From: Terrimonas ferruginea DSM 30193
GTDB lineage: Bacteria > Bacteroidota > Bacteroidia > Chitinophagales > Chitinophagaceae
Length of the DNA: 64,000 bases
Assembly (NCBI RefSeq): GCF_000425585.1
Contig: NZ_AUDS01000008.1
Location: 248,001 to 312,000, forward strand
Reading direction: 5' to 3'
Positions within the stretch are counted from its first letter, which is position 1, and each line of letters begins with the position of its first letter. Position numbers and translations under genes: made by a program. Shown in pieces: positions 4,692-58,304 of the stretch. Under the pieces are notes generated by a model that saw nothing but the letters and a program-made list of their open reading frames with translations, was not told the origin of the DNA and made no database searches.

Positions 4692-5202
4692 TCCAGCGAC
4701 CTTACTCTGGTAAACAGCAGAAGGTTCAGACTGCAGAATATCATCGATGATTATAACCGTGAGTCGCTGGCTATCGAAATCGATACTTCGCTGCCAGCAC
4801 TCAGAGTGATCCGAACACTTGAACAGTTAATAGAACGAAGAACAAAACCAGCGCGAATACGTGTAGACGATGGTCCCGAATTTATCAGTGACAGATTGCA
4901 ACAATGGTGCGATAACAAACAAATCAGGCTACAGTTCATACAACCAGGCAAACCTATGCAGAACGGATTTGTAGAACGCAACAATGGTTGTTTAAGGAAA
5001 GAATTACTGATGCTTATTTGTTTTACAGCCTAAGGAAAGTACGGCAAATGGCTGAGGAGAGGCAGCACGATTACAACTACGAAAGACCTCACGAATCGCT
5101 GGGAAATGTACCGCCGGTTGAATTTATTAATCCAACCTTTTTTGAATACTAAAAAACTGAAAACTCTAATTACGAATGGCCCGAATATAGGGGGAGCTTA
5201 CA
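4692..5202 (+). mobile_element. IS3-family insertion sequence, 3' remnant with broken transposase
   Basis: From about 4692 a frame reads into IIDDYNRESLAIEID and on through RVDDGPEFISDRLQQWC and GKPMQNGFVERNNG, the C-terminal half of an IS3-type OrfB integrase with its second Asp and final Glu. The first catalytic Asp region and all of OrfA are missing. At about 5009 one base has been lost: the protein changes frame and continues as DAYLFYSLRKVRQMAEERQH to a stop at 5150-5152. GGGGAGCTTACA, ending at 5202 in CA, looks like the right terminal inverted repeat; no matching left end (TGTAAGCTCCCC) is present, so the left part was deleted. Inactive. Confidence 0.85.
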
Positions 5203-5440
5203 GAGCTATTTAATAAACAATTTTAGTGGGACGATAGATATTTATATACTTTACTTAACTGTCCGTTTTTGATCCTATTATTCGTTGGCGTAAAATTGTT
5301 AAATTGACTTTGCAGAACCGGTTGTGCTTGCGTTTGATTTGCCGCGAAAGATATTATGTGACTTTAAATGAATTCCCTTTTCAAATTCAGAAAATCTTAA
5401 GTTGCGCTGCTTTGCTGATTTACAGACTTTAAGTGAAATC
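5203..5440. other. Intergenic, no gene seen
   Basis: AT-rich sequence between the IS right end and the 3' end of the gene at 5441. I see no coding frame, RNA gene or clear hairpin. Confidence 0.4.
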
Positions 5441-5950
5441 TTAGAGTAATCGTCCGTCTACCTTATCAAGTATGAAATCTCGCCATCCTCCAGGAGGATC
5501 CCATTCACCAGTGCCGAAAATTTTCCCATTATCAAAATTTTTAATCAAAACACCATCAACTCCAAGATCAGTGTTTATCCATAAGATTGAACCTTTCTTA
5601 GTTACACAATATATGCTTCCAGCACTTGAAATGTAGAAGGAATCAGAATCAAAGTACAAGTGGGAAAAATACCCATCCATTTTTATTGCCGCCAAATTTA
5701 AGTCCTGCTTCAAGTCGTAGAGATAGAAATACTCTTCATAGCCAACAGCCAAATATTCTTCCAGAATCGAAGCCTGCCTGAAGGGACTGCAATGATATTC
5801 GAACCTGATTTCGAAGACATTTAGTATGGAATTCCCCTCACGACAAATCAGGTAGGAGATATTGGGAAGTAATTGGATGTTACCGCCGGAAATCAATTTG
5901 ACTGATCCTCTAAACCCACTTGGTACTATTGGGGAAAATTCAAAATCCAT
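5441..5950 (-). CDS. Unrecognised 169-residue protein
   Basis: I do not recognise this protein. It has no signal peptide or membrane segment. It is rich in aromatic and acidic residues with alternating strands (YLAVGYEEYFYLYDL, SFYISSAGSIYCVTKKGSIL) and a C-terminal GEWDPPGGWRDFIL. That pattern suggests a small beta-propeller-like or immunity-protein-like fold; this is only an impression. The start is an ATG at 5950. It stands alone between an IS remnant and tRNA-Asn, in probable accessory DNA. It could be an orphan immunity protein, but no toxin gene is next to it. Confidence 0.6.
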   Translation of the reverse strand: MDFEFSPIVPSGFRGSVKLISGGNIQLLPNISYLICREGNSILNVFEIRFEYHCSPFRQASILEEYLAVGYEEYFYLYDLKQDLNLAAIKMDGYFSHLYFDSDSFYISSAGSIYCVTKKGSILWINTDLGVDGVLIKNFDNGKIFGTGEWDPPGGWRDFILDKVDGRLL

Positions 5951-44156: not shown

Positions 44157-44318
44157 AATAAAACAACATTAATTGGTGCAAAGGTATTCAAGACTACCCG
44201 GTTTTCCGGTTACAAAACGTTTGTTTTTCGTCAGTAATTCCGTGGTGGCCGGTAATGACCGCTGCCCGAAATGCAGTATTTTTGGCACCGCGGAAAGCAG
44301 AGCCGCCCTTATCAAAAT

Positions 44319-45800
44319 ATGACCAGCCAAAACAACAAGCGCTGTGCCGTAATCGGCGCAGGTGTGTCGGGAATAGCGGCGTCCATCCGCATGCGCAACA
44401 AAGGTTATGACGTAACCGTGTACGAAGCAAACAGTTTTCCCGGCGGCAAACTTTCTTCCGAAAGCAATAACGGTTACCGTTTCGACATGGGTCCCTCTGT
44501 TTTTACCATGCCTTCGTATGTCGATGAATTATTCGAACTCTCCGGAAAAAATCCCCGCGATTATTTCAATTACACACAATTAAATCCTGTTTACCATTAT
44601 TTTTTCGAAGACGGAAGCAGGTTGGACGCTTTTCATAACAAAGAAGGTTTTGCCGAAGCAATGGCCAAAACCACCGGTGATAGTAAAGAAGCCATCGTCA
44701 ATTACCTCAATCGCACCGAAACGATCTATCGTTTGACGGATGAGGTTTTTCTGCAAAATTCTTTGCATAAGTTCCGCAACTTCCTCACCTGGCCTGTATT
44801 ACGCGGCATTCTCAACTTCGGAAAGATCGGCGCATTCGATACCATGAACGGCGCCAATGAAAAATCGTTTAAGGATCCGAGGCTGGTACAATTGTTCAAC
44901 CGTTATTCTACTTATAATGGCTCCAGCCCTTATCTCGCTCCGGCCACGCTCAATGTCATTGCCCACCTCGAGATCGCCAAAGGCGCTTATTATCCCGAAG
45001 GTGGCATGTACAGTATCACCCGGTCATTGGTAAAACTGGCGAAAGATATCGGTGTGCAGTTTCGTTTTTCCACACCGGTAAGAGAGGTCCTTACCGAAAA
45101 CAAAAAAGTCAGCGGCATCCGCACCGATGAAGGAACAGAACAGTACGACGTAGTGATCAGCAACATGGACGTTTACAACAGCTATCGCCTGCTGCTGCCC
45201 AATCTGAAGAAGCCGCGTAAAACGCTCGATCAACCCAAGTCAAGCTCGGGCATTATTTTCTATTGGGGTATCAAAAAAGAATTTAGCGAACTCGGTTTAC
45301 ACAATATTCTTTTCAGCGCGGACTACCGCAAAGAGTTTGAAGCCATTTTCAAACACAAGACCATCGACAACGATCCCACCATTTATATCAACATTACCAG
45401 TAAACATTCTCCCGGAGATGCGCCTGCCGGTGGCGAAAACTGGTTTACGTTCATCAATGTGCCGAACAACAATGGTCAGGATTGGGACCAGCTCATCGCG
45501 CAGGCAAGAAAAAATATTGTCAGCAAGGTAAACAGGATGCTGAAGACGGATATTGAGCCGCTGATCGAAGCGGAGATGGTGTTTGATCCGCGCGTGATAG
45601 AGAACCGCACCTCGAGTGCATTCGGCGCTATTTACGGAAACAGCTCTAATAATAAGTTCGCGGCCTTCCTGCGGCATGCTAATTTTTCCAAAGAAATCAA
45701 AAACCTTTATTTCTGTGGCGGCAGCGTACATCCGGGGCCAAGCATTCCGCTTTGCCTGCTTTCCGCCAAGATCACCACCAATCTGGTAAAAGAACCTTAA
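44319..45800 (+). CDS. CrtI/CrtD-family carotenoid desaturase
   Basis: 493 residues. CAVIGAGVSGIAASIRMRNKGYDVTVYEA (in two parts CAVIGAGVSGIAA and YDVTVYEA) is the FAD dinucleotide fold, GYRFDMGPSVFTMP the substrate-side motif, and YFCGGSVHPGPSIPLCLLSA the C-terminal FAD motif. The HPG-IPLCLLSAK ending is closer to CrtD (hydroxycarotenoid 3,4-desaturase) than to phytoene desaturase, and a true CrtI-like protein is encoded at 56817. TATTTTGG (44278-44285) is a possible -7 box. The ATG at 44319 removes a spurious 16-residue extension. It may be the CrtD of the carotenoid pathway, or belong to the following cluster. Confidence 0.85.
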   Translation: MTSQNNKRCAVIGAGVSGIAASIRMRNKGYDVTVYEANSFPGGKLSSESNNGYRFDMGPSVFTMPSYVDELFELSGKNPRDYFNYTQLNPVYHYFFEDGSRLDAFHNKEGFAEAMAKTTGDSKEAIVNYLNRTETIYRLTDEVFLQNSLHKFRNFLTWPVLRGILNFGKIGAFDTMNGANEKSFKDPRLVQLFNRYSTYNGSSPYLAPATLNVIAHLEIAKGAYYPEGGMYSITRSLVKLAKDIGVQFRFSTPVREVLTENKKVSGIRTDEGTEQYDVVISNMDVYNSYRLLLPNLKKPRKTLDQPKSSSGIIFYWGIKKEFSELGLHNILFSADYRKEFEAIFKHKTIDNDPTIYINITSKHSPGDAPAGGENWFTFINVPNNNGQDWDQLIAQARKNIVSKVNRMLKTDIEPLIEAEMVFDPRVIENRTSSAFGAIYGNSSNNKFAAFLRHANFSKEIKNLYFCGGSVHPGPSIPLCLLSAKITTNLVKEP

Positions 45801-45866: not shown

Positions 45867-46619
45867 ATGAGCCATTCCGCCATTATAGAAATCAGCGAGC
45901 TCACGAAAAAGTTCCGGAATGCGACCGAACCATCGGTCAAGGGAATTTCGTTTTCCATCGAACGCAATGAAGTGTTTGGTTTGCTCGGACCCAACGGCGC
46001 AGGCAAAACCACCACGATCTCCATTCTCTGCGGATTGTTTCCGCCAACCAGCGGCACCGTGAAGATCGATGGAAAATATTTACACGAAGATTTAGCCTCC
46101 ATACGTCCGATCATCGGCATCGTGCCGCAGGACATTGCTTTGTATCCGACCCTCACGGCCCGCGAGAACCTCGATTTTTACGGCCATATGTATGGATTAA
46201 AAGGAAAAGAATTGCGCAGCCGCATCGATGAATGGCTGGAAAAACTGGGATTGACCACCGCAGCCAACCGCCCCGTTGCCGGTTATTCCGGCGGTATGAA
46301 AAGAAGGGTGAACCTCATCGCCGGTGTTCTTCATCGCCCGCGCATTTTATTTCTCGACGAACCAACGGTAGGCGTGGATGTGCAAAGCCGCAATGTGATC
46401 ATCGAACACCTCCAGGAATTAAACAAAGAAGGAACGACCATCATTTATACTTCGCATCACATGGAAGAAGCGGAGAACTTCTGTACGCATGTTTCGATCA
46501 TCGATCATGGAAGAATTCTGACGGAAGGTTCTCCTGCCAGCCTCATAGCGGCACACCCCGGATGCAACAACCTGGAAACCGTATTTCTCCACCTGACCAA
46601 CCGTAAACTCCGGGATTAA
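45867..46619 (+). CDS. ABC-2 type exporter, ATPase subunit
   Basis: 250 residues. LLGPNGAGKTTTISILCGLF (Walker A), YSGGMKRRVNLIAGVLHRP (signature), ILFLDEPTVGVD (Walker B) and YTSHHMEEAENFC (switch His). The sequence type is that of DrrA/CcmA-like drug or lipid exporters. TATTTTCG at 45839-45846 is a near-consensus -7 box. One base separates it from the permease gene. It probably exports the product made by the genes that follow. Confidence 0.93.
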   Translation: MSHSAIIEISELTKKFRNATEPSVKGISFSIERNEVFGLLGPNGAGKTTTISILCGLFPPTSGTVKIDGKYLHEDLASIRPIIGIVPQDIALYPTLTARENLDFYGHMYGLKGKELRSRIDEWLEKLGLTTAANRPVAGYSGGMKRRVNLIAGVLHRPRILFLDEPTVGVDVQSRNVIIEHLQELNKEGTTIIYTSHHMEEAENFCTHVSIIDHGRILTEGSPASLIAAHPGCNNLETVFLHLTNRKLRD

Positions 46620-46620
46620 C

Positions 46621-47928
46621 ATGATAAGCAAGCTACTCGCCACCATCCGAAAAGAAATCTGGCTGCTGCTGCGCGACCGCGTTGGCTTATCCATCCTTTT
46701 CCTCATGCCCATGATCCTCATCTTCGTAATGACGATGATCCAGGATGCGGCTTTCAAAACATTGAACGAAAAAGGTATTCCCGTTGTGTTTGTTAACCAG
46801 GACCGCGATTCCCTCGGCAGCATGATCGAATACGGTTTGCGCAATAATGATCTTTGTACGTTTTACGATTCCATCGATGGGCAGCCCGCAACATTGGAGT
46901 CTGCACGCAAGGCCATTGCCGATGGTAAGTTTCTCATTGGTATCGTTGTGCCCGCCGGCGCTACGGCCGCCATCCGCGAAAATGTAACGGCGCTGATCGC
47001 CGAAACGATCGACAACAGCGGCGACACCACACATACTGATCCATCCAAAGTTGCCGTCATCGATTCGGTGGAGATCTCCATACTCATCGATCCGGTAACC
47101 AAAAAATCGTTCATTACCTCCATTACCAGCAATCTGCGTGAATTTATTTCGGAGGTAAAGACAAAGATCATGTTCGAGACCTTCTCGAAAGAAATAGCGG
47201 AGATCATTCCCGATAACAATGGCAAAGGTCCGCGCAATGCCTTTCAGCGTACACAGATCATCCGCTACAATGAAGAGTATGCTTCACGCACCTCCGACAC
47301 GGTGGTGCCCAATGCCGTGCAGCACAATGTTCCGGCCTGGACCATCTTCGCCATGTTCTTTATCGCCATTCCGCTTTGCGGAAGTATTATGAAGGAAAAA
47401 AGCGAAGGCAGCGCTTTCCGTTTGCACACGATGCCCACTTCTTACCTGTTGCTGACACAAGGCAAGCTGATCGTGTATGTAATGGTTTGCCTGATCCAGT
47501 TTATGCTGATGTTATCGGTTGGTTTATATTTCCTTCCGATGCTGGGCCTTCCCAAATTAGTATTGGGTCATAGCATGGCGGGCATTGCAGTATTAACGAT
47601 CGCCACTTCGCTTGCAGCAACAGGATATGGTGTGCTGGTTGGAACACTGGCGTCTACCGAACAGCAGGGCGCTATCATGGGCTCGTTGTCTATTCTTTTG
47701 CTCTCTGCATTGGGCGGCATTTGGGTACCGACTTATGTAATGCCGGAAGCCATGCGCCAAATCAGTGTCTTCTCGCCGTTGAACTGGTCGCTGGATGGTT
47801 ATTATCAATTGTTCCTGCGGCAGGGCGGACTAAGTGATATTTTGATTTATTCGTTGAAGCTCTTCCTGTTCTTCGTGATCACACTCGGATGTGCCACAGC
47901 GATTAACAAATGGAAACGGCGCATCTGA
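46621..47928 (+). CDS. ABC-2 type exporter, membrane subunit
   Basis: 435 residues. One membrane helix near residue 25 (VGLSILFLMPMILIFVMTMI), a large extracytoplasmic domain of about 220 residues, then five membrane segments (WTIFAMFFIAIPLCGSIM, LIQFMLMLSVGLYF, GIAVLTIATSLAATGYGVL, AIMGSLSILLLSALGGIWV, LKLFLFFVITLGCATAI). This is the ABC2_membrane_3 plan used for polyketide, peptide and lipid exporters. Partner of the ATPase encoded upstream. Confidence 0.92.
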   Translation: MISKLLATIRKEIWLLLRDRVGLSILFLMPMILIFVMTMIQDAAFKTLNEKGIPVVFVNQDRDSLGSMIEYGLRNNDLCTFYDSIDGQPATLESARKAIADGKFLIGIVVPAGATAAIRENVTALIAETIDNSGDTTHTDPSKVAVIDSVEISILIDPVTKKSFITSITSNLREFISEVKTKIMFETFSKEIAEIIPDNNGKGPRNAFQRTQIIRYNEEYASRTSDTVVPNAVQHNVPAWTIFAMFFIAIPLCGSIMKEKSEGSAFRLHTMPTSYLLLTQGKLIVYVMVCLIQFMLMLSVGLYFLPMLGLPKLVLGHSMAGIAVLTIATSLAATGYGVLVGTLASTEQQGAIMGSLSILLLSALGGIWVPTYVMPEAMRQISVFSPLNWSLDGYYQLFLRQGGLSDILIYSLKLFLFFVITLGCATAINKWKRRI

Positions 47929-47967
47929 CAACGCATCTTCAATTTCCCCTATCTTAGCAATTACACT

Positions 47968-48219
47968 ATGGAAGAATCTGTGATCATAGCCGATATAAGG
48001 CAGTTTATTGAAACAAACATCCTGGCGGGTGGTGTGGAACTGACACCGGATACCAATCTGCAACAGGCAGGCATCGACTCGTTCTCTACCGTTGAGATCA
48101 TCCTTTTCCTCGAGCGGAATTTCAATACACCTGTACCGGACGACAAATTGCTTCCTGAAAATTTTCAAACCCTTCGCAGCCTGGCCCGCCTGGTCCGCGA
48201 ATTGTCGGCCACTAACTGA
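47968..48219 (+). CDS. Stand-alone acyl/peptidyl carrier protein
   Basis: 83 residues. LQQAGIDSFSTVEIILFLE is the carrier helix-2 site, with Ser in DSF (in place of the usual DSL) as the phosphopantetheine attachment residue. A four-helix carrier of normal length. TATCTTAG (47950-47957) ends ten bases before the ATG, suggesting its own promoter with almost no leader. The next gene, a condensation-type enzyme, begins four bases after its stop. It most likely carries the substrate activated by the ligase at 50991. It is not the fatty-acid ACP, which is encoded beside fabF in other genomes. Confidence 0.92.
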   Translation: MEESVIIADIRQFIETNILAGGVELTPDTNLQQAGIDSFSTVEIILFLERNFNTPVPDDKLLPENFQTLRSLARLVRELSATN

Positions 48220-48223
48220 CCTT

Positions 48224-49531
48224 ATGCCTGCGCTTCCCCGTAAAGTAATATTGAGCGGTTCGGATTGTTTTCATCTCGTACTGGACAAACACGCACATAA
48301 ATACGGCACTGGAAGCAACGTCATGCGGATCGTTTTTCAATCGCAGGAAAAAATAGCGGCACAACAGTTATCCGCACAACTTAACGCGTCTCCGCTTGTC
48401 CAATGGCTTTGCAACATACGCCTTCACAGTGGCGGATTATTCGGACGACCTTATTGGGAATACACCGGCGGCAACCAACCTATCCCGTTTTACGAACATC
48501 AATACGGACAAGCCGGAGAATTACCGGCAACACTTTTGCAGCGCGATCTTCCGTTGCGTCAGCAGCATTTTATAGAATGCGACCTGGTGCATTATCCCGA
48601 TGACACAACGGCGATTGTTATTTCCTGGAATCATATTTTACTCGACGGCCGCGGTATCGGTATGCTGATACAACACCTGAATGAATTGCATGAAGGACAG
48701 CCCGCGAGATCGGCCGATGTTTTATTTCCTCCTCCGGAGAAAAAAGCAAACTGGCCTGCGTATATCCGCAACATGTATCGCGTAAAAAGTTTTATCGAAA
48801 AATCTTCCCGCGCGCCTATTGCCTCTGTTGCATCCGGTTATGGTAAAGAGCCATCACAATTTCATACGCAACTGGTTCAGTTTTCTGTTGAAGAAACGGC
48901 GCGCATTCAGCAACAGGCCACGGCAGCAGGCGCGAGATTTGGTCCCAATCTTTTTTATTTATCCTGTTGCGCGCAGGCAGTGCGTGCAAGGTTGGATGAA
49001 AAAAATATTCCCGGTCCTTTCTGGATCCCCATTCCCTATGACGGACGCCTGCGTGGATCATTCGGGCCGGTCATCACCAACACCGTTGCTTTTCTTTTTT
49101 ACCGGCTGGAACGCGACCAGTTACATCAGCTTCCTACGACCGTGGCAGCACTGCAGCAGCAAATGACCGATCAGATGCGCGACAAAATGCCGCAGCGTTA
49201 CAGTATGCTGCTCAGCATGATGCGGCACATTCCCCTGAATCTTTACTATTTCCTGGTCAACCGGCGCGGCAAGGGCGCTTTTGCCAGTTTTCTTTATTCT
49301 TCTACGGGCGACAGTTTCAACAAAACCGACCGTTTTATGGGCATTCCGGTGGAACATGTCACGATCTACCCGTCGCCCACCTTCCCGCCCGGCCTCACTT
49401 TTTCCTTCCTCAAACACCGGGAAGCGTTGAATATCAACATTGCGTACTCACCCGATATTGTTCCGCAGGCAGACCTGCAACTACTTATAGCGCGGCTTCG
49501 TCAAATGCTGCTGGGCAGCGGTTCCGAATGA
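48224..49531 (+). CDS. Condensation-type acyltransferase (free-standing C-domain-like)
   Basis: 435 residues. SWNHILLDGRGIGML contains HxxxDG, the catalytic motif of NRPS condensation domains and related acyltransferases; NTVAFLFYRL and the basic GPFWIPIPYDGRLRG match the second half of the fold. It would join a carrier-bound acyl or aminoacyl group to an amine or alcohol. The ATG at 48224 is preferred over the longer frame, which would overlap the carrier gene. The presence of carrier, AMP-ligase and FAD enzyme around it supports a dissociated assembly line. Confidence 0.85.
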   Translation: MPALPRKVILSGSDCFHLVLDKHAHKYGTGSNVMRIVFQSQEKIAAQQLSAQLNASPLVQWLCNIRLHSGGLFGRPYWEYTGGNQPIPFYEHQYGQAGELPATLLQRDLPLRQQHFIECDLVHYPDDTTAIVISWNHILLDGRGIGMLIQHLNELHEGQPARSADVLFPPPEKKANWPAYIRNMYRVKSFIEKSSRAPIASVASGYGKEPSQFHTQLVQFSVEETARIQQQATAAGARFGPNLFYLSCCAQAVRARLDEKNIPGPFWIPIPYDGRLRGSFGPVITNTVAFLFYRLERDQLHQLPTTVAALQQQMTDQMRDKMPQRYSMLLSMMRHIPLNLYYFLVNRRGKGAFASFLYSSTGDSFNKTDRFMGIPVEHVTIYPSPTFPPGLTFSFLKHREALNINIAYSPDIVPQADLQLLIARLRQMLLGSGSE

Positions 49532-49706
49532 TACAATACGGTTTTTCACGGATATAGGAAATACGTATTTCGTGGGATTGGTCAAATGCCCGGAGAGTCG
49601 TAACTATGCCCTTTAAGGCCCATCGCCCTTCGTTCCCAAAGGTCCCTGAGGCACTCGAAGGGCTCAGGGAACGAAGGGCTCGGAGAATTTCGGGTAACCA
49701 TTAACC
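49532..49706. other. Spacer with 13-bp-arm hairpin
   Basis: No gene. GCCCTTCGTTCCC (49625-49637) and its complement (49667-49679) form a long-loop inverted repeat with an internal CCCTGAG/CTCAGGG pair. It looks like an inserted dispersed repeat in the cluster. Confidence 0.7.
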
Positions 49707-50957
49707 ATGAAGCTTCAACGCACAGATATTCTTGTACTGGGAGGAGGCGCGGCGGGAATCGCTGCCGCCTCGGCCGCCGCCGACACGGGACTCGACGTGA
49801 CCCTGGTGGAAAAAAATGGTTATGCCGGCGGCAAAGCCACTGCCGCTGAAGTGGGCACCATCTGCGGACTTTATCGCTTCAGCTTTGATAGTGCAGATTA
49901 TATCGTCAAAGGTTTTGCACGCGATTTTGCAGAAGAACTGCGTATCCGCTCCGGCACAACCCCGCTCAGCAACGCATCCGGTCTTCACTATCTCCCCTAT
50001 CATATCGACGTTTTTAAACAATACAGTTACGAATTACTGAATACAAAAGGTGTTCGCGTATTCTTTCATAGCCATGTTACGGCAGTAACGGTAAAAGAAA
50101 AACAAGTCAATGCCGTTTTCATTCACACGCAGGATGAAGGTGAAATAGAAATTCGTCCGCGTATCGTTATTGATTGTACGGGCGAAAGCACCGTTGCACG
50201 CCTTGCCGACCTGACGGTAATCAGAAGTGAGCACTACCAGGCCGCAGCGCAGGTATTTACCCTGCAGGGAATCAAAGAAACGCATGAAGGAAAACTGGGC
50301 CTGATCCTGATGAAAGAACTTCGTATGGCGATTCAACAGGGCAAACTCGATCATTACTTCGATCGCGTATATGTGGTGCAGGGCTCGTTGCATGATGGCA
50401 CCGTGAGTCTCAAGATCGGCATTCCGGTGCCGGTTACTTATTGCCCCGGCAATCTCGATGCGCTTCGGGCTTCGGCCTTTGATTTTATTTACCGCCTTAC
50501 CACTTATCTCAAAGAAAATGTAGCCGCTTTCAAAGAAGTGACCATCGAACATATTGCCCCCGAAGTGGGCATCCGTGTCGGTCAGCGTACACATGGACGT
50601 TATGTATTGACAGAAGAAGATGTATTGGGTTGTAAAAAATTTCCCGACGCTATTGCGGATTGCGGCTGGCCCATTGAAGAATGGGAACAGGACCGCCGTG
50701 TACATATGCGTTACTTCGAACCGGAAGAATTTTACCAGGTGCCGGCCCGTTGCCTCCGCGCCAACGGCATCGACAATCTTTATATGGGTGGACGAAACAT
50801 ATCTGCCACAGACGGCGCCATTGCCAGTGCGCGCGTGATCGGTATTTGTTTACAAACCGGCTATGCCGCCGGGCGACTGGCCGCCGCGCAATTACAAGGC
50901 ATCTCTGCCGACAGCATCATTGAAGAAATTCAACTCGGTGCGGTTTACTCTTCCTGA
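49707..50957 (+). CDS. FAD-dependent oxidoreductase (FAD_oxidored type)
   Basis: 416 residues. ILVLGGGAAGIAAASAAAD is the FAD fold, GGKATAAEVGTICGLY the Cys-containing loop of this family (PF12831-like), DCTGESTVARLADL the second nucleotide contact and NLYMGGRNISATDGAIASAR the C-terminal motif. Such enzymes oxidise substrates of many kinds, some of them carrier-bound amino acids in secondary metabolism. Here it lies between the condensation-type gene and the AMP-ligase, so oxidation of a tethered substrate is a fair guess. Confidence 0.88.
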   Translation: MKLQRTDILVLGGGAAGIAAASAAADTGLDVTLVEKNGYAGGKATAAEVGTICGLYRFSFDSADYIVKGFARDFAEELRIRSGTTPLSNASGLHYLPYHIDVFKQYSYELLNTKGVRVFFHSHVTAVTVKEKQVNAVFIHTQDEGEIEIRPRIVIDCTGESTVARLADLTVIRSEHYQAAAQVFTLQGIKETHEGKLGLILMKELRMAIQQGKLDHYFDRVYVVQGSLHDGTVSLKIGIPVPVTYCPGNLDALRASAFDFIYRLTTYLKENVAAFKEVTIEHIAPEVGIRVGQRTHGRYVLTEEDVLGCKKFPDAIADCGWPIEEWEQDRRVHMRYFEPEEFYQVPARCLRANGIDNLYMGGRNISATDGAIASARVIGICLQTGYAAGRLAAAQLQGISADSIIEEIQLGAVYSS

Positions 50958-50990
50958 AAACTCCATTCCCTTTTTGAATATCTTCACGAG

Positions 50991-52430
50991 ATGAATGACC
51001 AGCCCGTATATGAGGTGTTGCGGCAAGCCGCGATCAACTGGCCGCAACGGCCAGCCGTGATCGACGAATACGGCACCATGACCTTTGATATGTTGTGGAA
51101 TGAAACGGAGCTGCTGAAAGCACAGCTACAACAACAAGGCGTAACCTCCGGGCATGCAGTTGGCATGAAAGCGCACAACGGCCGCTATTTCATCATCGGA
51201 CTATTTGCCGTAGCCGGATGTGGTGCTGCCGTGATGCCACTCTATCATTTATTAAAAAAAGAAGAAACAGCGCAATGCATCGCCGATGCCGGGCTTCATT
51301 TTTTACTGGAAGAATACATTGGTATAACCAATGAAAATGATCAGCGTGAACCGCTGGCCCTTTCCGGAGGAGGCTTTTATTTTTCCCCGACAACTATTGA
51401 CGCAGACTATCCCTTTGCTCCGCATGTAGATCATCCGGTGTTTGTCCGTTTTACTTCGGGCACAACGGGCACGTCGAAGGGCGTAGTACTATCACAAAAA
51501 ACGGTAATAGATCGCATTGAAGCCGCGAACCGTGGCCTGGAGCTGGGGCCGGAAGATGTGGTAGTGTGGGTTTTGCCAATGGCCTATCACTTTGTGGTGT
51601 CGATTGTATTGTATGTGCGTTTCGGCGCCGCCATAGCAGTGGTCAGTGATTTTCTCGCGCGCAATATCATTCGCATGACCAACGACCACAACGGCACGAT
51701 GATCTATGCCTCGCCCCTGCAGATACGGTTGATGGCGCATGATAAAAGTGAAGAGCAATTGCCGTCGCTGAAAAAAATCATCTCTACGTCCGCAGGTATT
51801 GGCGTGGATGTATGCAACGACTTCCGCGCAAGATTCGGTAAAGACGTGAGCCAGGCTTATGGCATTATTGAAATCGGCTTGCCCATGATGAACCTGCGCA
51901 AATCAGCGGAGCATCCTGATGCGGTAGGCTACGCATTGCCGGGATACGATATTGGTATTCTGGATGACAACTATCAACCACTTCCGCCGGGGCATACGGG
52001 CTACCTGGGTATTCGCGGTCCGGGTATGTTTGATGCTTACCTGAAACCCGCCAAACGCAGTGCAGAAGTGTTGGTCAATGGTTATTTTCTGACCGCAGAC
52101 TACGCCAGCAAAACGGAAGATGGCCTGGTAAAAATAGAAGGGCGTGCGAAGTCGGTGATCAATGTGTCGGGTATAAAAGTTTTTCCGGAAGAAGTGGAAG
52201 CGGTGATCGAAACTTATCCCGGTATTCTTCAGGCAAAAGTGAGCAGCGTTCCGCATCCATTGATGGGGCAGTTGATAGAAGCAGAAATTGTGGTGGAGAA
52301 AAATGCGGACATCAATATAGAAAAAGTAATGACCTATTGCCGGCAAAAACTCTCCAATTTCAAAGCGCCGCAAAGAATGCGGGTGGTCGAATCGCTGGAG
52401 ATGACAAGCACGGGAAAGTTGAAACGATAA
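50991..52430 (+). CDS. AMP-forming acyl/aminoacyl ligase (adenylation enzyme)
   Basis: 479 residues. FVRFTSGTTGTSKGVVLSQ is the A3 phosphate loop, SQAYGIIEIGLP the A5 region, GYFLTADYASKTEDG (A7) and GRAKSVINVSGIKVFPEEVE (A8) follow, and STGKLKR holds the A10 Lys. It adenylates a carboxylic acid and should load it on the carrier protein encoded at 47968 or on CoA. The substrate cannot be read from the sequence; the lack of a clear Asp in the amino-binding position needs checking. It ends the run of plus-strand cluster genes. Confidence 0.9.
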   Translation: MNDQPVYEVLRQAAINWPQRPAVIDEYGTMTFDMLWNETELLKAQLQQQGVTSGHAVGMKAHNGRYFIIGLFAVAGCGAAVMPLYHLLKKEETAQCIADAGLHFLLEEYIGITNENDQREPLALSGGGFYFSPTTIDADYPFAPHVDHPVFVRFTSGTTGTSKGVVLSQKTVIDRIEAANRGLELGPEDVVVWVLPMAYHFVVSIVLYVRFGAAIAVVSDFLARNIIRMTNDHNGTMIYASPLQIRLMAHDKSEEQLPSLKKIISTSAGIGVDVCNDFRARFGKDVSQAYGIIEIGLPMMNLRKSAEHPDAVGYALPGYDIGILDDNYQPLPPGHTGYLGIRGPGMFDAYLKPAKRSAEVLVNGYFLTADYASKTEDGLVKIEGRAKSVINVSGIKVFPEEVEAVIETYPGILQAKVSSVPHPLMGQLIEAEIVVEKNADINIEKVMTYCRQKLSNFKAPQRMRVVESLEMTSTGKLKR

Positions 52431-52440
52431 CGGCGATCTG

Positions 52441-52519
52441 CCTTTGCGCCTTAATTTCTTGGCGTCTCTGCGTGAACCGAAGCCGCGTATCACGCAAAGC
52501 AACATAAGGAGCAAAGACG
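52441..52519. repeat. TTTGCGTGA-family palindromic repeat
   Basis: Between two convergent genes. Left part (CTTTGCGCCTTAATTTC, GTCTCTGCGTGA) is repeated in inverted form as TCACGCAAAGC and GGAGCAAAGACGCTAAG up to about 52525, overlapping the end of the MBL gene. Related copies are at 9617, 25754 and 53317. Confidence 0.75.
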
Positions 52520-53272
52520 CTAAGAAAGTTTTAACTCGCTTCTATCGTGGTAACCAAACACCTCTACTTCCGGATGTTCCTTTATTAATTTCCTGATTTT
52601 ATCGAGGCTCGCCAATCTTTGTTCATTGTCATCGGCTCTTGCAATGGCCAGTGCGGTAACGGGATGTTCGGGATCTTCCAATTCTCCCCGTAAATAATAA
52701 GCATCGCCAACATACAACACCCAGCGGTCACCTTGTTCGATGGCGACACCGCAATGTCCGCGCGTATGGCCAAACAACGGCACAAGATAAACGCGTGAGC
52801 TAAAGCCCAACTTCACTTCGCGGGCTTCGAGTCCCATCCATTTTTCGTCGCCAGCCTTATACGCAATGATCTCGGGGTTGTGTGATAACTGATGCGGCAG
52901 GTAACGTTGATTGCCGCTGTTGAAATTGGCGAGTTCTTCTGCACCAACGTGTATGGTCATTCCGGAAAAATCTGCGAGGCCGCCGATATGATCCGGATCG
53001 AGATGGGAAATAACGGCTTGCTTCACGAGCAGGGGATCGAGTCCGAGCAGACCGATTTGTTTATAGGCGGCCAGGTCTTCATCCAATCTGAACCCCACGA
53101 GGTCGATGAGTGTCTGACCCACGCGCGTCTGTGGTTGTTGTGCATCGAGCATGCCCATACCCGCATCCACCAAAGCAAGACCCGCAGGATCTTCGAGCAG
53201 CAGGCAATGTCCGATCACATCGTCATTAACCGGCGTTACGATTTTGAGGCAATTGAGATGATGAATTTTCAT
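52520..53272 (-). CDS. Metallo-beta-lactamase-fold hydrolase (AHL-lactonase-like)
   Basis: 250 residues. SHLDPDHIGGL is the HxDxDH zinc motif (H, D, D, H), LFGHTRGHCGVAI the third His and LYVGDAYYLRG the bridging Asp. The order and the absence of a signal peptide suit the N-acyl-homoserine-lactone lactonase branch, but other lactone or thioester substrates are equally possible. The ATG at 53272 is chosen. It stands convergent to the AMP-ligase and 153 bp downstream of crtYcd, with palindromic repeats on both sides. Confidence 0.88.
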   Translation of the reverse strand: MKIHHLNCLKIVTPVNDDVIGHCLLLEDPAGLALVDAGMGMLDAQQPQTRVGQTLIDLVGFRLDEDLAAYKQIGLLGLDPLLVKQAVISHLDPDHIGGLADFSGMTIHVGAEELANFNSGNQRYLPHQLSHNPEIIAYKAGDEKWMGLEAREVKLGFSSRVYLVPLFGHTRGHCGVAIEQGDRWVLYVGDAYYLRGELEDPEHPVTALAIARADDNEQRLASLDKIRKLIKEHPEVEVFGYHDRSELKLS

Positions 53273-53316
53273 AAGCAAAATTAAAAATTCAAAAATGTTG
53301 AATGGAGATTCATTGG

Positions 53317-53400
53317 CCTTCGCGACTTAATTTCTTAGCGACTTTGCGTGAAAGCGGCGCCGGTTCACGCAAGGATGCATAAGGGGCAAAGACGCGAAGG
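53317..53400. repeat. TTTGCGTGA-family palindromic repeat, closed form
   Basis: Outer arms CCTTCGCG/CGCGAAGG bound an element with inner CTTTGCGTGAA/TTCACGCAAGG arms around AGCGGCGCCGG. The whole 84-bp unit could fold into one long hairpin. It lies downstream of crtYcd. Confidence 0.8.
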
Positions 53401-53425: not shown

Positions 53426-54139
53426 TTACCCTTTTGAGTTTTTACTTTTGAATTGTTCTCTTTTGAGAACACGCTCATAAAGCGCCACGTTCATCATGAT
53501 TAATAACATGCCGTAAAAAGTATCTTCAAAAGGAATGGTATACATGCGGATGCCGAGATTTTCCGCATCGTTATACAACACCACCGGAATAGCCGTAAGG
53601 AAACCATTTACTATCAAAAACGGCACCAGGATGATGATATACGATACCACAAACGAGACCGCATCAAAGCCTTTGAACCATGACTTCCATACATACACCA
53701 TACCGATAAAGATGCCGAGGAAGAAAAAGGTCCAGGAGGTATAATATTTATCGTAGAAGACTGCACCGGCGATAATAGACAATACTGCTATCAACTGCAG
53801 CACCCGGTTACCCCATACCTTCTTTTTAAGATTGGGAAAATAACAACGGATACATTCATATACAAACACGCAACAGTACGGCACTACGAAAAAGAAAAGT
53901 ATTTCCTCGATAGGTAATCCGAAAAGGCGATGCCCTGTAATATATTTTTCATTAAACCACCATACGCCTTCCTTCGTGAAAAAGGAATCCCAGGCAACAT
54001 AAAGTGCAGCTGGAATCAGCATGGGAATAACCAGGTATTTCCACCTTTTATAAAACGCTACTTTTTTATCAAAGCTAAGCGCCAACGGACCGGCGAGCGA
54101 TGCTGCCAGTATGATATAGTACGTGTAATGACTGTTCAC
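53426..54139 (-). CDS. crtY: Lycopene cyclase, fused CrtYc-CrtYd type
   Basis: 237 residues, very hydrophobic, with about seven membrane segments. Two half-repeats show the acidic signature of this family: HRLFGLPIEEILFFFVVPY (PIEE) and MYTIPFEDTFYGMLLIMMN (PFED). The two halves correspond to the heterodimeric CrtYc and CrtYd joined in one chain, as in Bacteroidota. It closes the psi ends of lycopene to beta rings. The start is GTG at 54139, six bases past the crtZ stop. Last gene of the carotenoid operon. Confidence 0.93.
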   Translation of the reverse strand: MNSHYTYYIILAASLAGPLALSFDKKVAFYKRWKYLVIPMLIPAALYVAWDSFFTKEGVWWFNEKYITGHRLFGLPIEEILFFFVVPYCCVFVYECIRCYFPNLKKKVWGNRVLQLIAVLSIIAGAVFYDKYYTSWTFFFLGIFIGMVYVWKSWFKGFDAVSFVVSYIIILVPFLIVNGFLTAIPVVLYNDAENLGIRMYTIPFEDTFYGMLLIMMNVALYERVLKREQFKSKNSKG

Positions 54140-54145
54140 GGAAAA

Positions 54146-54664
54146 TCAGGATTCAGACTTTTCAATGGTAGGATAGGCGACTCCGCGGCCGGAAGCTTTG
54201 CGTTTTTTGTCCGCCTGCACTTTCTCCCAATATTTTTTTGCCACCCAAAGCATACCAAAGCTTTCGCCGTCATGTTTGTCCAGATGCTTATGGTGCATCT
54301 TGTGCGCCCAGCGAAGCGTACGGATATAGGTATTGTTGCTGCGGGAAAACCATTTGAACCGCTGGTGGATGATCACATCGTGCACCATGAAATAGGCGAA
54401 GCCATAAAGACTCAGACCCGCCCCGATGGCAATGGACCAGTAAGCCTGGTTCATTACTCCCAGCATGATCAGCAACCAGCTTGGAATAGCGAAAATGAGA
54501 AAGAAGGCATCGTTCTTTTCAAAAAAGCCCGGCTCCGGCTGGTGATGGTCTTTGTGCAGGTACCATAAAAATCCATGCATCACATAACGATGCAGGCACC
54601 AGGTAAAACCCTCCATCAGCACAAACGTGGCTAATGCAATGCCTATGTACAATAATATGCTCAT
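54146..54664 (-). CDS. crtZ: Beta-carotene 3-hydroxylase
   Basis: 172 residues. The His clusters HRYVMHGFLWYLHKDHHQ, HDVIIH and HKMHHKHLDKHDGE are the di-iron ligands of the fatty-acid-hydroxylase superfamily CrtZ group. Four membrane segments. It adds a 3-hydroxyl to beta-ionone rings. The His set is complete. Coupled to crtYcd downstream and cruF upstream. Confidence 0.95.
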   Translation of the reverse strand: MSILLYIGIALATFVLMEGFTWCLHRYVMHGFLWYLHKDHHQPEPGFFEKNDAFFLIFAIPSWLLIMLGVMNQAYWSIAIGAGLSLYGFAYFMVHDVIIHQRFKWFSRSNNTYIRTLRWAHKMHHKHLDKHDGESFGMLWVAKKYWEKVQADKKRKASGRGVAYPTIEKSES

Positions 54665-54680
54665 GGCGCCGGATGAACGT

Positions 54681-55328
54681 TTAGGTTAAAAAGATGCGAA
54701 GTACCAAAAAGAACAGGAGTTGTATGAGCAACAAATTTACACCGAATTTATTATCCTTTGAGACTTTACACCAGTGAAAAATCGCGGCCAGCAGCATACT
54801 TACCAAAAACCAGGTGATATAGTTATATACCGGCACAGATCCGTCACCGCCCCATTGCCAGTATCCCAATCTGATCGCAACAGGTTCCATCAGCCAGTCA
54901 TACCCCACGGCTAACAATGCCGTGACAATTATCTTTATCAAGGGTGCCGTGCCTGACAGCAACCGCCACGTGGTAATAGCACTGATGTATACGACCATGA
55001 ACCAGTTGACGCCCAGCATCAGCGGCACACCCAATACTTTGATGCCCATGATCCAGCCATAATTATAATGACCAAACAAGGCCGAGGTCTGCACGCCCAC
55101 TATTTCCACGGTCATGCCCGCCACAAAACAGCAAAGCACAAATATCCAGAAGCCCGTGTTGCGCGGCTTTTGCGTCCAGAACAAAAGACCCATCATCAAT
55201 AGCAGATTGAAGGGCGTCGCCGTCAAAAAAAACTCATGCGGAAAAAACAACATGCCCACCGCTCCGATTACATGGAACAGCGCAGCAACGGCTGTTGCCT
55301 TTTGATAAATGGATAAATTTTTAAGCAC
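54681..55328 (-). CDS. cruF: CruF-like carotenoid biosynthesis protein (C-1' hydratase)
   Basis: 215 residues with about six membrane segments, of the carotenoid-biosynthesis family (DUF422) that includes CruF. HYNYGWIMGIKVLGVPLMLGVN and AVGYDWLMEPVAIRLGYWQW are the conserved parts. CruF adds water at C-1' of the open end of gamma-carotene. Start GTG at 55328, overlapping the idi stop by 8 bp; no ATG is available before residue 25. Symbol by family and context. Confidence 0.82.
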   Translation of the reverse strand: MLKNLSIYQKATAVAALFHVIGAVGMLFFPHEFFLTATPFNLLLMMGLLFWTQKPRNTGFWIFVLCCFVAGMTVEIVGVQTSALFGHYNYGWIMGIKVLGVPLMLGVNWFMVVYISAITTWRLLSGTAPLIKIIVTALLAVGYDWLMEPVAIRLGYWQWGGDGSVPVYNYITWFLVSMLLAAIFHWCKVSKDNKFGVNLLLIQLLFFLVLRIFLT

Positions 55329-55845
55329 CGCTATTTTTTTCCTGTAAAAAAGCCATCAGTCTTGGAAGCGCGATCTTGAACCACTCGGTATATTTCTGCG
55401 GATGCGTTTGCATGGACTGCACAATTTCCTCAACAGGTTTGTAGCAATAATCGGCTACTTCGTCCGGATCGGGAGACACGGCTCCTTCGTAGGTGCCGGT
55501 AAATACATGGTCGTATTCATGTTCGGTAAGGCCGTTGTCGAAAGGTGCCTTGTATACAAACGAAAAAGCATGCTGAAGCGGAGTATTGAACCCCATTTCT
55601 TCCTGCAATCGCCGCGAAGCGGCATCCGCTGTTTTTTCTCCGGGAAAAGGATGACTGCAGCAGGTGTTGGTCCACAAGCCACCGCTGTGATATTTGCTCA
55701 GCGCACGCTGGTGCAGGAGCAATTCTTTTTTTTCGTTGAAAATAAAAATGCTGAAGGCCCGGTGCAGTACCGCCTGCCTGTGCGCTTCCATCTTTTCCAT
55801 CGTTCCCAACTCAACATCATGTTCGTCCACCAGGATCACATCCAT
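55321..55845 (-). CDS. idi: Isopentenyl-diphosphate delta-isomerase, type 1
   Basis: 174 residues. The Nudix-type core is present: WTNTCCSHPFPGEK (catalytic Cys in CCSHP) and ASRRLQEEMGF (Nudix Glu cluster), with ENNTEHEYDHVFTG-type TEHEYDHVF carrying the second catalytic Glu. It interconverts IPP and DMAPP, supplying carotenoid precursors. Two bases separate it from crtB. Confidence 0.96.
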   Translation of the reverse strand: MDVILVDEHDVELGTMEKMEAHRQAVLHRAFSIFIFNEKKELLLHQRALSKYHSGGLWTNTCCSHPFPGEKTADAASRRLQEEMGFNTPLQHAFSFVYKAPFDNGLTEHEYDHVFTGTYEGAVSPDPDEVADYCYKPVEEIVQSMQTHPQKYTEWFKIALPRLMAFLQEKNSGA

Positions 55846-55847
55846 AG

Positions 55848-56684
55848 CTATAGTATATTGAACTGGCTTCGCACGCCGGCTTTTGCTACGATGTATGCTT
55901 TGCCGTAATTGGGAATGCGGATTCGCTGCTCGAGAATGCAGGAAGGCGCCGTTCGTTTTATTTTTTTGAAAAGAGACAGATAATATTTGTAAGCAACGTA
56001 CACTCCGAAGCGCGCTTTCACCGGTAATTCCAGTATGCCTTTATACGCATCTTCAAAATCTTTCGCGATATCATCTTCAATCTCGCGTTTCATGTCGAGG
56101 GTGAAGTTGCGGAAGTCTACGCCGGGAAAATAAGTCCGGTTGAGGTGTTCGTAGTCTGCTTTTACATCACGCAGGAAGTTTACCTTCTGAAAGGCCGCAC
56201 CCAATGATTGCGCTGAAGGTTTCAGCTTTGCATACATGTCGCGGTTGCCTTCGCAGAATACGAACAGACACATCAGTCCTACCACTTCCGCACTGCCATA
56301 GATGTATTCTTTGTATCCGCAGCTATTGTATTTTGTTTTGCTGAGGTCCATTTCCATGCTTTGGAAAAACGCTTCGATCAGTTCATGATCGATGTTGTAT
56401 TCACGCACGGTTTTCTGAAAGCTGTGCAGAATCGGGTTGAGGCTGATGCCCCTTTCGATTGACGCATAGGTTTCTTTCTTGAATTCGAACAGGAGCGTTT
56501 CCTTATCGTATTCATGGAAAGTATCTACAATCTCATCGGCCAGGCGCACGAAGCCGTAAATATTGAAGATCGGTTTGCGGAGATCTGCATGAAGCAGCCG
56601 GATAGCACTGCTGAAGGATGTGCTGTACTTTTCCGTCGTGGCCTTACTGCACTGTTCACATAGATCATGAAATAGCTGCATCAT
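55848..56684 (-). CDS. crtB: Phytoene synthase
   Basis: 278 residues. FVRLADEIVDTF is the first Asp-rich DxxxD motif and KVNFLRDVKADYE the second, both for Mg-diphosphate binding. It condenses two GGPP molecules to phytoene. I chose ATG 56684 over the upstream TTG. Squalene synthase is a related possibility; the neighbours decide for CrtB. It lies 132 bp after crtI. Confidence 0.95.
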   Translation of the reverse strand: MMQLFHDLCEQCSKATTEKYSTSFSSAIRLLHADLRKPIFNIYGFVRLADEIVDTFHEYDKETLLFEFKKETYASIERGISLNPILHSFQKTVREYNIDHELIEAFFQSMEMDLSKTKYNSCGYKEYIYGSAEVVGLMCLFVFCEGNRDMYAKLKPSAQSLGAAFQKVNFLRDVKADYEHLNRTYFPGVDFRNFTLDMKREIEDDIAKDFEDAYKGILELPVKARFGVYVAYKYYLSLFKKIKRTAPSCILEQRIRIPNYGKAYIVAKAGVRSQFNIL

Positions 56685-56816
56685 CGCATTCAATCGGTTT
56701 AAGGACTGGTTATTCGTTTTGGTTAAAGATATGTCTGTCTGTTCGGCTATTAATTTACGCTTTTTTAGGAAACTGACACCTCCGGAGATGGTTTTTCCCC
56801 GTTGGCGGTTGCCTGA

Positions 56817-58304
56817 TCAATGACTAAAAACACGGGCTACTTCTCCCGCTACCACTTCGCCGCTGATCAGGCTGGGCGGCACTCCCGGCCCGGGAACCGT
56901 CAGTTGGCCTGCATAAAACAGGTTCCTGATTTTCGAACTCCGGCAGGAAGGTTTCAATACTGCGGTCTGGCTCAGCGTATTAGCCAGCCCGTAGGCATTT
57001 CCTTTAAAAGAATGATAGTCCGTCGTGAAATCGCTGACGGAATAACTTTTCTTATATATAATGGCATCTTCCACGGAAGTGCCTGTCTGTTCTTCATAAC
57101 GGCGGAGAATCTGCCTGAAATATTTTTCCCGCAATTCTTCCGTATCTCCTTCCAGTCCCGTGGCTACAGGAATCAGGAAAAAGAGGTTTTCGCAACCGGC
57201 CGGCGCTACCGTTTCATCGGTTACGGACGGTGCACATACATAAAACAAAGGATCCGATGGCCATTCACGCGAGCGATAGATCTCTTTTCCATGCACACCA
57301 AAATCCGTATCGAAGAACAAAGAGTGATGCAATATGCCGGGTAGTTTTTTGTTCAATCCCACATAATACAACAGGCAACTCGGCGCCATCACGCGTTTGT
57401 TCCAATATGACTCACTATACGAACGGTCTTCGGGTGCCAGCAGTTTTGTTTCGATGAAATGATAATCTGCGGCTCCTACTACCACATCGGCTTCGAGACT
57501 TCCTTCTTTTCCGGAGGCATCCGTATAACGTACGCCCGTTGCACGACCATGGCCCGTCTGGATGCCTGTCGCCGGCGTATTGAAACGGAATTTCACTCCC
57601 TGTTCCTGTGCCAGTTGATACATCGCATCCACCACCTGGTACATCCCTCCCTGCGGATACCAGGTACCCAGACACATGTCAGCATAGTTCATCAGGCTGT
57701 AAAGTGCCGGTGTATTTTCAGGAAGCGCTCCTAAAAACAAAACCGGGAACTCCATCAGTTGCTGCAGTTTGGGGTCGCGGAAATATTTGCGGATATGCTT
57801 TTTCATATTGGTCAGCACATCCAGTTTAAATACGCCTTTTGCCACATCCCAATCCAGGAACTCGGCCCATGAGCGACCGGGTTTGTGCACGAGCTTGTTG
57901 ATACCAACTTCGTATTTGTAGGCCGCTCCCTGCATAAACTGGTCGAGCTTTGCGCCGCTGCCGGATTCTATCGATTCAAATAACTGTTTCAGTTCTTCGT
58001 AAGAAGCGGGAAGATCCATCGGCCCGTCCTGCCAGTATACACGATAGGACGGATCCAGCCGGTCAAGGTGATAATAATCGCTCACTTTTTTACCAAAACA
58101 TGCAAAAAAGCGTTCGAAAACGTCCGGCATCCAATACCAGCTCGGTCCCATGTCGAAAGTAAAACCTTCGGCTTTCAGGATACGGGCACGTCCGCCGGGG
58201 GTGGCATTTTTCTCCAAAACGGTCACATCCCAACCCGCGCGGGCGAGAAACGACGCAGCAGAAAGACCCGCAAATCCGCTTCCTATAACGATGGCTTTTT
58301 TCAC
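56817..58304 (-). CDS. crtI: Phytoene desaturase
   Basis: 495 residues. AIVIGSGFAGLSAASFLAR is the FAD fold, GFTFDMGPSWYWMPDVFER the family motif and FYAGQLTVPGPGVPPSLISG the C-terminal FAD motif. It converts phytoene to lycopene. First gene of the operon. The start is GTG at 58304; TATTTTCG on the minus strand at 58318-58311 ends only six bases upstream, so its mRNA may be leaderless. Confidence 0.95.
   Translation of the reverse strand: MKKAIVIGSGFAGLSAASFLARAGWDVTVLEKNATPGGRARILKAEGFTFDMGPSWYWMPDVFERFFACFGKKVSDYYHLDRLDPSYRVYWQDGPMDLPASYEELKQLFESIESGSGAKLDQFMQGAAYKYEVGINKLVHKPGRSWAEFLDWDVAKGVFKLDVLTNMKKHIRKYFRDPKLQQLMEFPVLFLGALPENTPALYSLMNYADMCLGTWYPQGGMYQVVDAMYQLAQEQGVKFRFNTPATGIQTGHGRATGVRYTDASGKEGSLEADVVVGAADYHFIETKLLAPEDRSYSESYWNKRVMAPSCLLYYVGLNKKLPGILHHSLFFDTDFGVHGKEIYRSREWPSDPLFYVCAPSVTDETVAPAGCENLFFLIPVATGLEGDTEELREKYFRQILRRYEEQTGTSVEDAIIYKKSYSVSDFTTDYHSFKGNAYGLANTLSQTAVLKPSCRSSKIRNLFYAGQLTVPGPGVPPSLISGEVVAGEVARVFSH

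Follow-up and report, generated by a model that had tools for sequence, protein, structure and literature searches.

Our analysis concerns a stretch of 64,000 nucleotides from Terrimonas ferruginea DSM 30193 (contig NZ_AUDS01000008.1, positions 248,001 to 312,000), called the window below, and a unit of seven genes within it. In order, these encode a carotenoid desaturase (here CrtD*), the ATPase and the permease of an ATP-binding cassette (ABC) exporter, a free carrier protein, a stand-alone protein with the fold of condensation enzymes (the C-like enzyme), an oxidoreductase dependent on flavin adenine dinucleotide (FAD) and an AMP-forming ligase. We read this set as a co-inherited module for pigment acylation and export whose acceptor would most likely be a carotenoid, and we hold this reading tentatively, at a probability of about 40%. 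An earlier note on the same DNA had recognised the last six genes and taken them for a self-contained pathway resembling a nonribosomal peptide synthetase (NRPS). Our analysis does not support this view: the unit contains a CrtD of a private clade, carotenoid genes are its usual neighbours and three of its loci lie in or beside flexirubin-type genes.

Gene content, cohesion and conserved residues

All six plus-strand open reading frames (ORFs) between 45867 and 52430 were found again in the ORF list of the window, and the domains attributed to them in the earlier note were borne out. The ABC-2 ATPase (45867..46619; PF00005, 1.5e-35) is followed by the permease (46621..47928; PF12698, 1.6e-26), the 83-residue carrier (47968..48219; PF00550, 4.1e-9), the C-like enzyme of 435 residues (48224..49531; named from its AlphaFold model and fold searches), the PF12831 FAD oxidoreductase (49707..50957; 5.9e-72) and the ligase (50991..52430; PF00501, 2.5e-56, together with PF13193). 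The first gene of the unit lies directly upstream on the same strand (44271..45800, with the true start likely near 44322) and was not among the six; it encodes a CrtI/CrtD-type carotenoid 3,4-desaturase (NCBIfam NF042421 CrtD, 644 bits, cut-off 500). In the window, as in the relative loci examined, the adenylation (A), thiolation (T) and condensation (C) functions each have a gene of their own and no fusion was seen; the set is thus no assembly-line NRPS with A, T and C in one multimodular protein.

The C-like protein (E<=1e-8) occurs in 4 of 394 Chitinophagaceae genomes, belonging to 3 of 101 genera. We rejected a wide spread of the set because a profile search in the phylum, covering 395 genomes, matched only the window's own genome; this search scores just a few candidates per genome and distant relatives may escape it. 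A pattern scan in which 84,980 species were represented by a single genome each returned 17 loci, all titled Bacteroidota and all recorded from metagenome-assembled genomes (MAGs). Together with the window we counted 18 distinct loci: L030 and L007 (G003), L017 and L009 (G241) as well as L027 and L010 (G310) are the same loci and were counted once each, the nearly identical L020 and L022 were counted as two, and the cut contigs L016, L018, L025 and L029 were excluded from counts for the side that they do not show. The window's genome is labelled G000; L024 comes from G778, a Ferruginibacter MAG, and L031 and L032 (the latter in G777) are from Saprospiraceae.

The carrier adjoins the C-like gene in 17/17 loci showing that side, with a gap of 0.5 kb in G003, the C-like gene adjoins the FAD gene in 18/18, and the ligase adjoins the FAD gene in 15/16, the exception being G003 (L030). 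Additionally, the permease precedes the carrier in all 15 Chitinophagaceae-type loci showing that side. The gene before the ATPase is CrtD* in 12 of 13 loci, with G003 again as the exception. The earlier note had proposed to drop its pathway if the homologues lay apart in most genomes. They do not: the dissociated ligase, carrier, FAD and C-like set with its ABC pair is cohesive across Chitinophagaceae, and a four-gene core is kept in two Saprospiraceae loci. Gene gaps, as computed from script-picked starts, are mostly short. Wherever a relative shows both ATPase and permease, their distance is -1 base; in most relatives the gap amounts to 2-4 bases between permease and carrier, -4 to 2 bases between C-like and FAD gene and about 13 bases between FAD gene and ligase. 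Exceptions are L024, with 134 bases from carrier to C-like gene and 217 bases from CrtD* to ATPase, and L028 with 79 bases. The window has its own peculiarity: its C-like and FAD genes are separated by 175 bases (49531-49707), whereas these genes overlap or nearly touch in most relatives, and the gap contains a perfect 13-base inverted repeat (49625-49637 / 49667-49679).

The attachment serine of the carrier (48079-48081, plus strand), which had been noticed in a DSF motif, stands in a DSFS motif kept in 16/16 alignment rows. In the C-like protein the stretch SWNHILxDxxG, including HxxxD, is present in all 16 rows, with the predicted catalytic His at 48632-48634 and Asp at 48644-48646 (plus strand). 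Thus the HxxxD part of the HxxxDG reported earlier is conserved, while its glycine, found after the Asp in 4 of 16 rows, is not; the first His of a full HHxxxDG occurs in 0/16. No Pfam family is matched by this protein at E<=0.01, hence PF00668 is not matched either; a weak WS/DGAT match appears in NCBIfam (2.5e-4) and bacitracin synthase 3 was matched in a profile search (E 8e-4). For the model built from 16 homologues (mean predicted local distance difference test score, pLDDT, 81), both Foldseek and VIA-align gave matches to condensation domains that span the entire protein, residues 1-435, so that HxxxD is no chance motif. The SrfA-C condensation domain ranks first in Foldseek. In VIA-align a series of C domains runs from Z 27.4 downward, below a single higher row discussed further on, and the fold is shared by O-acyltransferases, namely PapA5 (1q9j, Z 25.5), WS/DGAT (6chj, Z 24.6) and SgcC5 (4znm, Z 23.1); these three and starter C domains align at Z 23-26 over 333-397 residues. 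The modelled two-lobed fold and the HxxxD motif therefore place the protein in the superfamily of condensation enzymes and CoA-dependent acyltransferases. The notion that its ORF arose by chance was rejected in view of the fold match and the conservation.

The ligase carries TSGTTGxSKG and a C-terminal TGK motif in 14/14 rows. It has no match in the Protein Data Bank (PDB) at 1e-60, and its nearest solved relatives, at similar scores, extend from malonyl-CoA and oxalate-CoA ligases to the A domain of LgrA. A domains for alpha-amino acids bind the amino group by an Asp near the position of the ligase stretch AYHFxVSxxLY. This stretch, present in 14/14 rows, has no Asp, which is a mild argument that the acid is probably not an alpha-amino acid, although the register of the stretch to a solved A domain is not fixed; the amino-acid sense of the earlier label NRPS is accordingly doubtful. 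The FAD enzyme (model pLDDT 88) has no PDB profile match at 1e-10, and at 1e-3 the best stretches listed cover the N-terminal FAD-binding part only. An assignment as flavin-dependent halogenase was rejected: WxWxIP, the motif of these enzymes, occurs in 0/15 rows.

CrtD* and the carotenoid genes

CrtD* belongs to the seven-gene unit and not merely to the carotenoid genes next to it. The 11 other copies in our tree are 72-78% identical to the window's CrtD*, and the CrtD of three other set genomes of the family is 75-78% identical to it; in 44 set-free genomes listed at E<=1e-150 the identity is at most 53%. As this listing misses weaker CrtD genes, the family counts given below use the curated model NF042421. 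In a tree of 34 rows (12 set CrtD, 21 other CrtD and one CrtI) the 12 set sequences form one clade with support 98/96; the CrtD of L016, which lies in two ORF pieces, was excluded. We also inspected 20 CrtD loci of set-free genomes, chosen by contig extent from 98 set-free CrtD genomes, seven of them for having the markers of both pigments considered here (CrtD and LolB2_flexi). None of them has a match to the carrier, C-like, FAD, ligase or permease protein, and the order CrtI-CrtB-IDI-CrtD-CruF-CrtZ (IDI, isopentenyl-diphosphate isomerase) is complete in 13 of the 20. One of the 20 (L126) has a generic ATPase match of 29%. In the window and in the nine relative loci that show the CruF-IDI junction, no CrtD is located there.

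G778 (L024) possesses two CrtD genes: one, 47% identical and falling in the ordinary clade, belongs to an ordinary carotenoid cluster, and the other is the CrtD* of the set, so that CrtD* must be counted as a part of the unit. In such a genome CrtD* must either act differently from ordinary CrtD or be bound to the set. L024 is the first branch within the CrtD* clade, but the support for its position in a concatenated four-protein tree is only 56/62, too low for calling the flexirubin placement ancestral. The search for CrtD in G003 found CrtD* and CrtI alone, and CrtD is missing from the carotenoid locus examined in G779; in these genomes CrtD* is therefore probably the working carotenoid desaturase.

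At 12 of the 18 loci, one of them the window, the set borders on carotenoid genes. In the window they are convergent with the set (53426-58304, minus strand), also outside the six genes first noticed, and comprise a CrtYcd-like lycopene cyclase (53426..54139; PF18916, TIGR03462), a CrtZ-type carotene hydroxylase (54146..54664), a CruF-like carotenoid 1,2-hydratase (54681..55328; PF04240, 1.4e-23, with TIGR03460 at 72 bits under its cut-off of 154.7), IDI (55321..55845; NF002995, 169.8 bits, cut-off 127), the phytoene synthase CrtB (55848..56693; squalene/phytoene synthase models all under cut-off, adjoining CrtI) and the phytoene desaturase CrtI (56817..58304; NF058655, 739 bits, cut-off 640). 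CrtZ has no Pfam or NCBIfam match and was named by its position; a homologue lies at the same place in 10/10 relative loci showing the lycopene cyclase. With CrtZ so named, the window brings together CrtB, CrtI, CruF, lycopene cyclase, CrtZ and CrtD, as in clusters of the saproxanthin/myxol type. Saproxanthin would be the expected product of these genes if CrtA-OH is lacking. The route leading to myxol is given in PMC11855829.

The junction between the two gene groups varies. In the window a metallo-beta-lactamase-fold gene (52520-53278, minus strand; matches resembling lactonases of acyl-homoserine lactones, below cut-off) separates the ligase from the lycopene cyclase (region 52437-53400), whereas the two are at most 23 bases apart in 9 of 10 relatives showing both. 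Repeats resembling CGCAAAGACGCTAAG flank this gene, with 9 matches in the window at <=3 mismatches against 1.9 expected. At the same junction L025 has an insert of 2.6 kb with two minus-strand ORFs of 272 and 554 residues.

Exporter kinship, flexirubin genes and alternative readings

The genome of the window also holds a flexirubin/aryl-polyene cluster. It lies on another contig (L097-L099, G000 contig C6, about 51000-86700) and includes a ligase of its own, an aromatic amino acid lyase, AcpS, LolA, LolB2, DarB and DarH. Its dialkylresorcinol (DAR) genes follow the order DarB, one further ORF, DarH, ATPase, permease, carrier and ketosynthase, DarH being a BtrH-related acyltransferase (444 bits, cut-off 300); the dar genes listed for arcuflavin in PMC3949708 resemble this order. 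The ATPase of our set is 47% identical to the ATPase of this cluster, and the only other relative of the set permease (E<=1e-8) adjoins a ketosynthase gene in 4/4 set genomes, at 33-35% identity; in the window's genome this relative belongs to the DarB/DarH cluster. Set and DAR permeases are split by a long 100/100 branch; the corresponding branch of the ATPase tree is weaker (97/79 for the DAR copies), with one far outlier, L007_11925. By these sequence comparisons the ABC pair of the set is a paralogue of the pair of the flexirubin/DAR cluster. The ATPase-permease-carrier block has an acyltransferase-type enzyme next to it in either cluster, DarH in one and the C-like enzyme in the other, which suggests a parallel between them.

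The two pigments meet in the genomes with the set. The flexirubin marker LolB2_flexi is found in 107 and CrtD (NF042421) in 102 of the 394 family genomes. In Chitinophagaceae the two markers avoid each other, both being present in 17/394 (odds ratio 0.45, p 0.006, values that ignore relatedness, from counts in which one match to LolB2 and two to CrtD score below the family cut-off). All four family genomes with the set are among these 17, with a chance probability of 2.4e-6 that likewise ignores relatedness, two of the four sharing one genus. The remaining 13 carry both markers and no C-like match; thus the possession of two pigments is not sufficient for the set. LolB2_flexi was detected in 8/8 set genomes tested (G000, G003, G241, G310, G775, G776, G777 and G778), all eight of which also have carotenoid genes, and CrtB in 5/5 further set genomes, both Saprospiraceae included; the flexirubin-gene count leaves out G779 and G780.

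We rejected the notion that the set is itself a flexirubin or aryl-polyene pathway. By ORF list, Pfam and NCBIfam its seven genes contain no ketosynthase, ammonia lyase or Lol-type gene, and 103 of the 107 family genomes with LolB2_flexi have no C-like match, from which it follows that flexirubin does not need the C-like protein. The earlier note would have dropped its pathway had the set matched one of these. Its statement that phosphopantetheinyl transferase (PPTase) and ketosynthase are missing holds for the window but not for the genome, where two PPTase-family and 11 ketosynthase-family matches are found.

Several observations weigh against a pigment-acylation module built around a carotenoid. 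Flexirubin genes surround or adjoin the set at three loci. In L024 the set lies inside a flexirubin cluster, rather than with the carotenoid genes: upstream are a BtrH-type protein, an ATPase, a permease, a carrier, a ketosynthase and one protein (4633-5712) with no Pfam family, and downstream a CrtI-like flavoprotein, a FabA-like protein, LolB2_flexi (122 bits, cut-off 60), LolA, a polysaccharide deacetylase and two ketosynthase-family genes; 11 of the 12 matched neighbours are 50-85% identical to flexirubin-cluster proteins of the window's genome, the twelfth 23%. In the Saprospiraceae loci L031 and L032 the set consists of carrier, C-like, FAD and ligase genes and lacks CrtD* and the ABC pair. 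The L031 core adjoins LolB2_flexi (107.6 bits, cut-off 60), a FabA/ApeI-like dehydratase, a GT2-DUF2062 protein and AcpS, which beside a carrier fits its priming with phosphopantetheine; L032 shows the same order by BLAST (LolB2_flexi, 107.7 bits). Furthermore, L138, the only Saprospiraceae carotenoid cluster found with sufficient flanking sequence, has no CrtZ, CruF or CrtD match nearby, so a hydroxylated carotenoid as acceptor is doubtful in that family. In Chitinophagaceae 98 of the 102 genomes with CrtD do without the set, and the set of G003 is divided between two contigs, ligase, CrtD* and carotenoid genes lying apart from the rest. L028 has neither pigment cluster within about 10 kb on each side; the contig of L018 is too short to judge its pigment neighbours. 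At the level of the enzymes, the fold search with the FAD protein singles out no function (50 listed rows of many functions, Z 21.4 to 17.9), and the VIA-align row above all C domains for the C-like model is AzeD (8s6l; Z 30.8, rmsd, the root-mean-square deviation, 3.6 over 409 residues, the next row being 27.4), which is titled a dehydratase and not a transferase.

One would argue from the three flexirubin placements that the set tailors the flexirubin or dialkylresorcinol, the C-like enzyme esterifying the free phenol of the resorcinol or supplying another acid, while the carotenoid site is only a landing place and CrtD* is carried along. The DAR-type ABC pair and the flexirubin marker in every set genome tested would fit as well. 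However, most genomes with this marker manage without a C-like protein, CrtD* stands before the ATPase at 12/13 loci and carotenoid genes are the usual neighbours at 12/18, which makes this explanation doubtful in our view.

It could also be that the set makes a small acyl product of its own (an ester, amide or lipid) that stays separate from the pigments, the locus being shared through light or oxidative-stress control. The core has no carotenoid neighbours in L028 and L030. In L010 a CarH-like B12-binding regulator (3-611, partial, under cut-off) and an extracytoplasmic function (ECF) sigma factor (738-1235) adjoin CrtI, so that light control of the whole locus, and with it a shared control, is plausible. 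But a pigment-free product does not account for CrtD* travelling with the set even where, as in G778, the set lies among flexirubin genes, for the presence of both pigments in set genomes or for the relationship of the ABC pair to the flexirubin pair, and we consider it unlikely.

The position of AzeD admits a further possibility, that the C-like protein is not a transferase and acts on a carrier-bound substrate, for example as an AzeD-like dehydratase that together with the FAD enzyme desaturates the acyl group, with the product leaving by another way. AzeD is also third in Foldseek, and of HHxxxDG neither the first His nor the Gly is conserved. Still, fold similarity does not show function, Foldseek prefers the SrfA-C condensation domain, the acyltransferases and starter C domains follow at Z 23-26, and another enzyme would have to release the acyl group, for which the seven genes offer neither a thioesterase nor another transferase; we regard this as very unlikely. 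We give equally little credence to a hybrid in which the set esterifies a flexirubin-side acid (aryl polyene or resorcinol) onto a hydroxylated carotenoid and exports the resulting carotenoid-polyene pigment, although it would explain both pigments, the ABC kinship, the CrtD* of the unit and its placement in either cluster.

Proposed route and relation to known systems

If the set is a pigment-acylation module, the ligase would adenylate a carboxylic acid and load it onto the holo-carrier, primed by a PPTase of the genome such as the AcpS of the flexirubin cluster. The FAD enzyme may then oxidise or reduce the carrier-bound acyl group, and the C-like enzyme would pass it to a hydroxyl of a membrane pigment, the most likely acceptor being the 3-OH of a saproxanthin-type carotenoid made by the neighbouring genes and CrtD*. 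Finally, the ABC-2 pair could export the acylated pigment from the inner membrane, a role that its paralogue presumably has for flexirubin. Carotenoids would thereby gain an acylation route that is dissociated, works through a carrier and has a dedicated exporter, such as we did not find described for Bacteroidota, and the set would tie carotenoid and flexirubin biology together. The C-like protein could serve as a marker for strains worth extracting for unusual pigment esters.

The closest functional parallel of the set is the module of SgcC1, SgcC2 and SgcC5 by which a beta-amino acid is attached in the enediyne C-1027. It comprises the ligase SgcC1, the free carrier SgcC2, the FAD enzymes SgcC3 and SgcC and the free-standing condensation enzyme SgcC5, which esterifies an alcohol on the separately made C-1027 core with a carrier-bound acid. 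Our set has the same composition, a discrete ligase, carrier, FAD tailoring enzyme and stand-alone C enzyme encoded together. It differs in that the C-like protein is related to SgcC5 by fold alone (Z 23.1, 13% identity), Asp is missing from the ligase stretch that would be expected to hold an alpha-amino acid, the neighbours make pigments and not an enediyne, and a DAR-type ABC pair and CrtD* are included. More broadly, the C-like enzyme resembles NRPS condensation domains, WS/DGAT, PapA5, BAHD-type acyltransferases and AzeD in fold and in the catalytic His and Asp, but is about 10-15% identical to them, has NHxxxD in place of HHxxxD and stands alone.

Flexirubin and aryl polyene-dialkylresorcinol clusters, as described in PMC3949708 and PMC3992019, have in common with the set an ATPase-permease-ACP (acyl carrier protein) block beside an acyltransferase and an ABC pair of the same family; the set in turn has, besides the genes already named as lacking, no DarH/BtrH-like protein, LolA or LolB2. 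Bacteroidota clusters of the myxol, saproxanthin and flexixanthin type (PMC11855829 and PMC10784355) share CrtB, CrtI, a CruF-like protein, lycopene cyclase, CrtZ and CrtD with the window. In the window, however, CrtD is not placed between IDI and CruF but in a convergent operon with the ABC, carrier, C-like, FAD and ligase genes, and the terms 'acyl' and 'ABC' are absent from the main text of these two papers. No published description of such a set was found in the open-access literature. Dissociated ligase/carrier/C systems, saproxanthin-type clusters and the ABC pairs of flexirubin clusters are each known already, while the union of ligase/carrier/C, carotenoid and ABC elements in one co-inherited unit is new to us.

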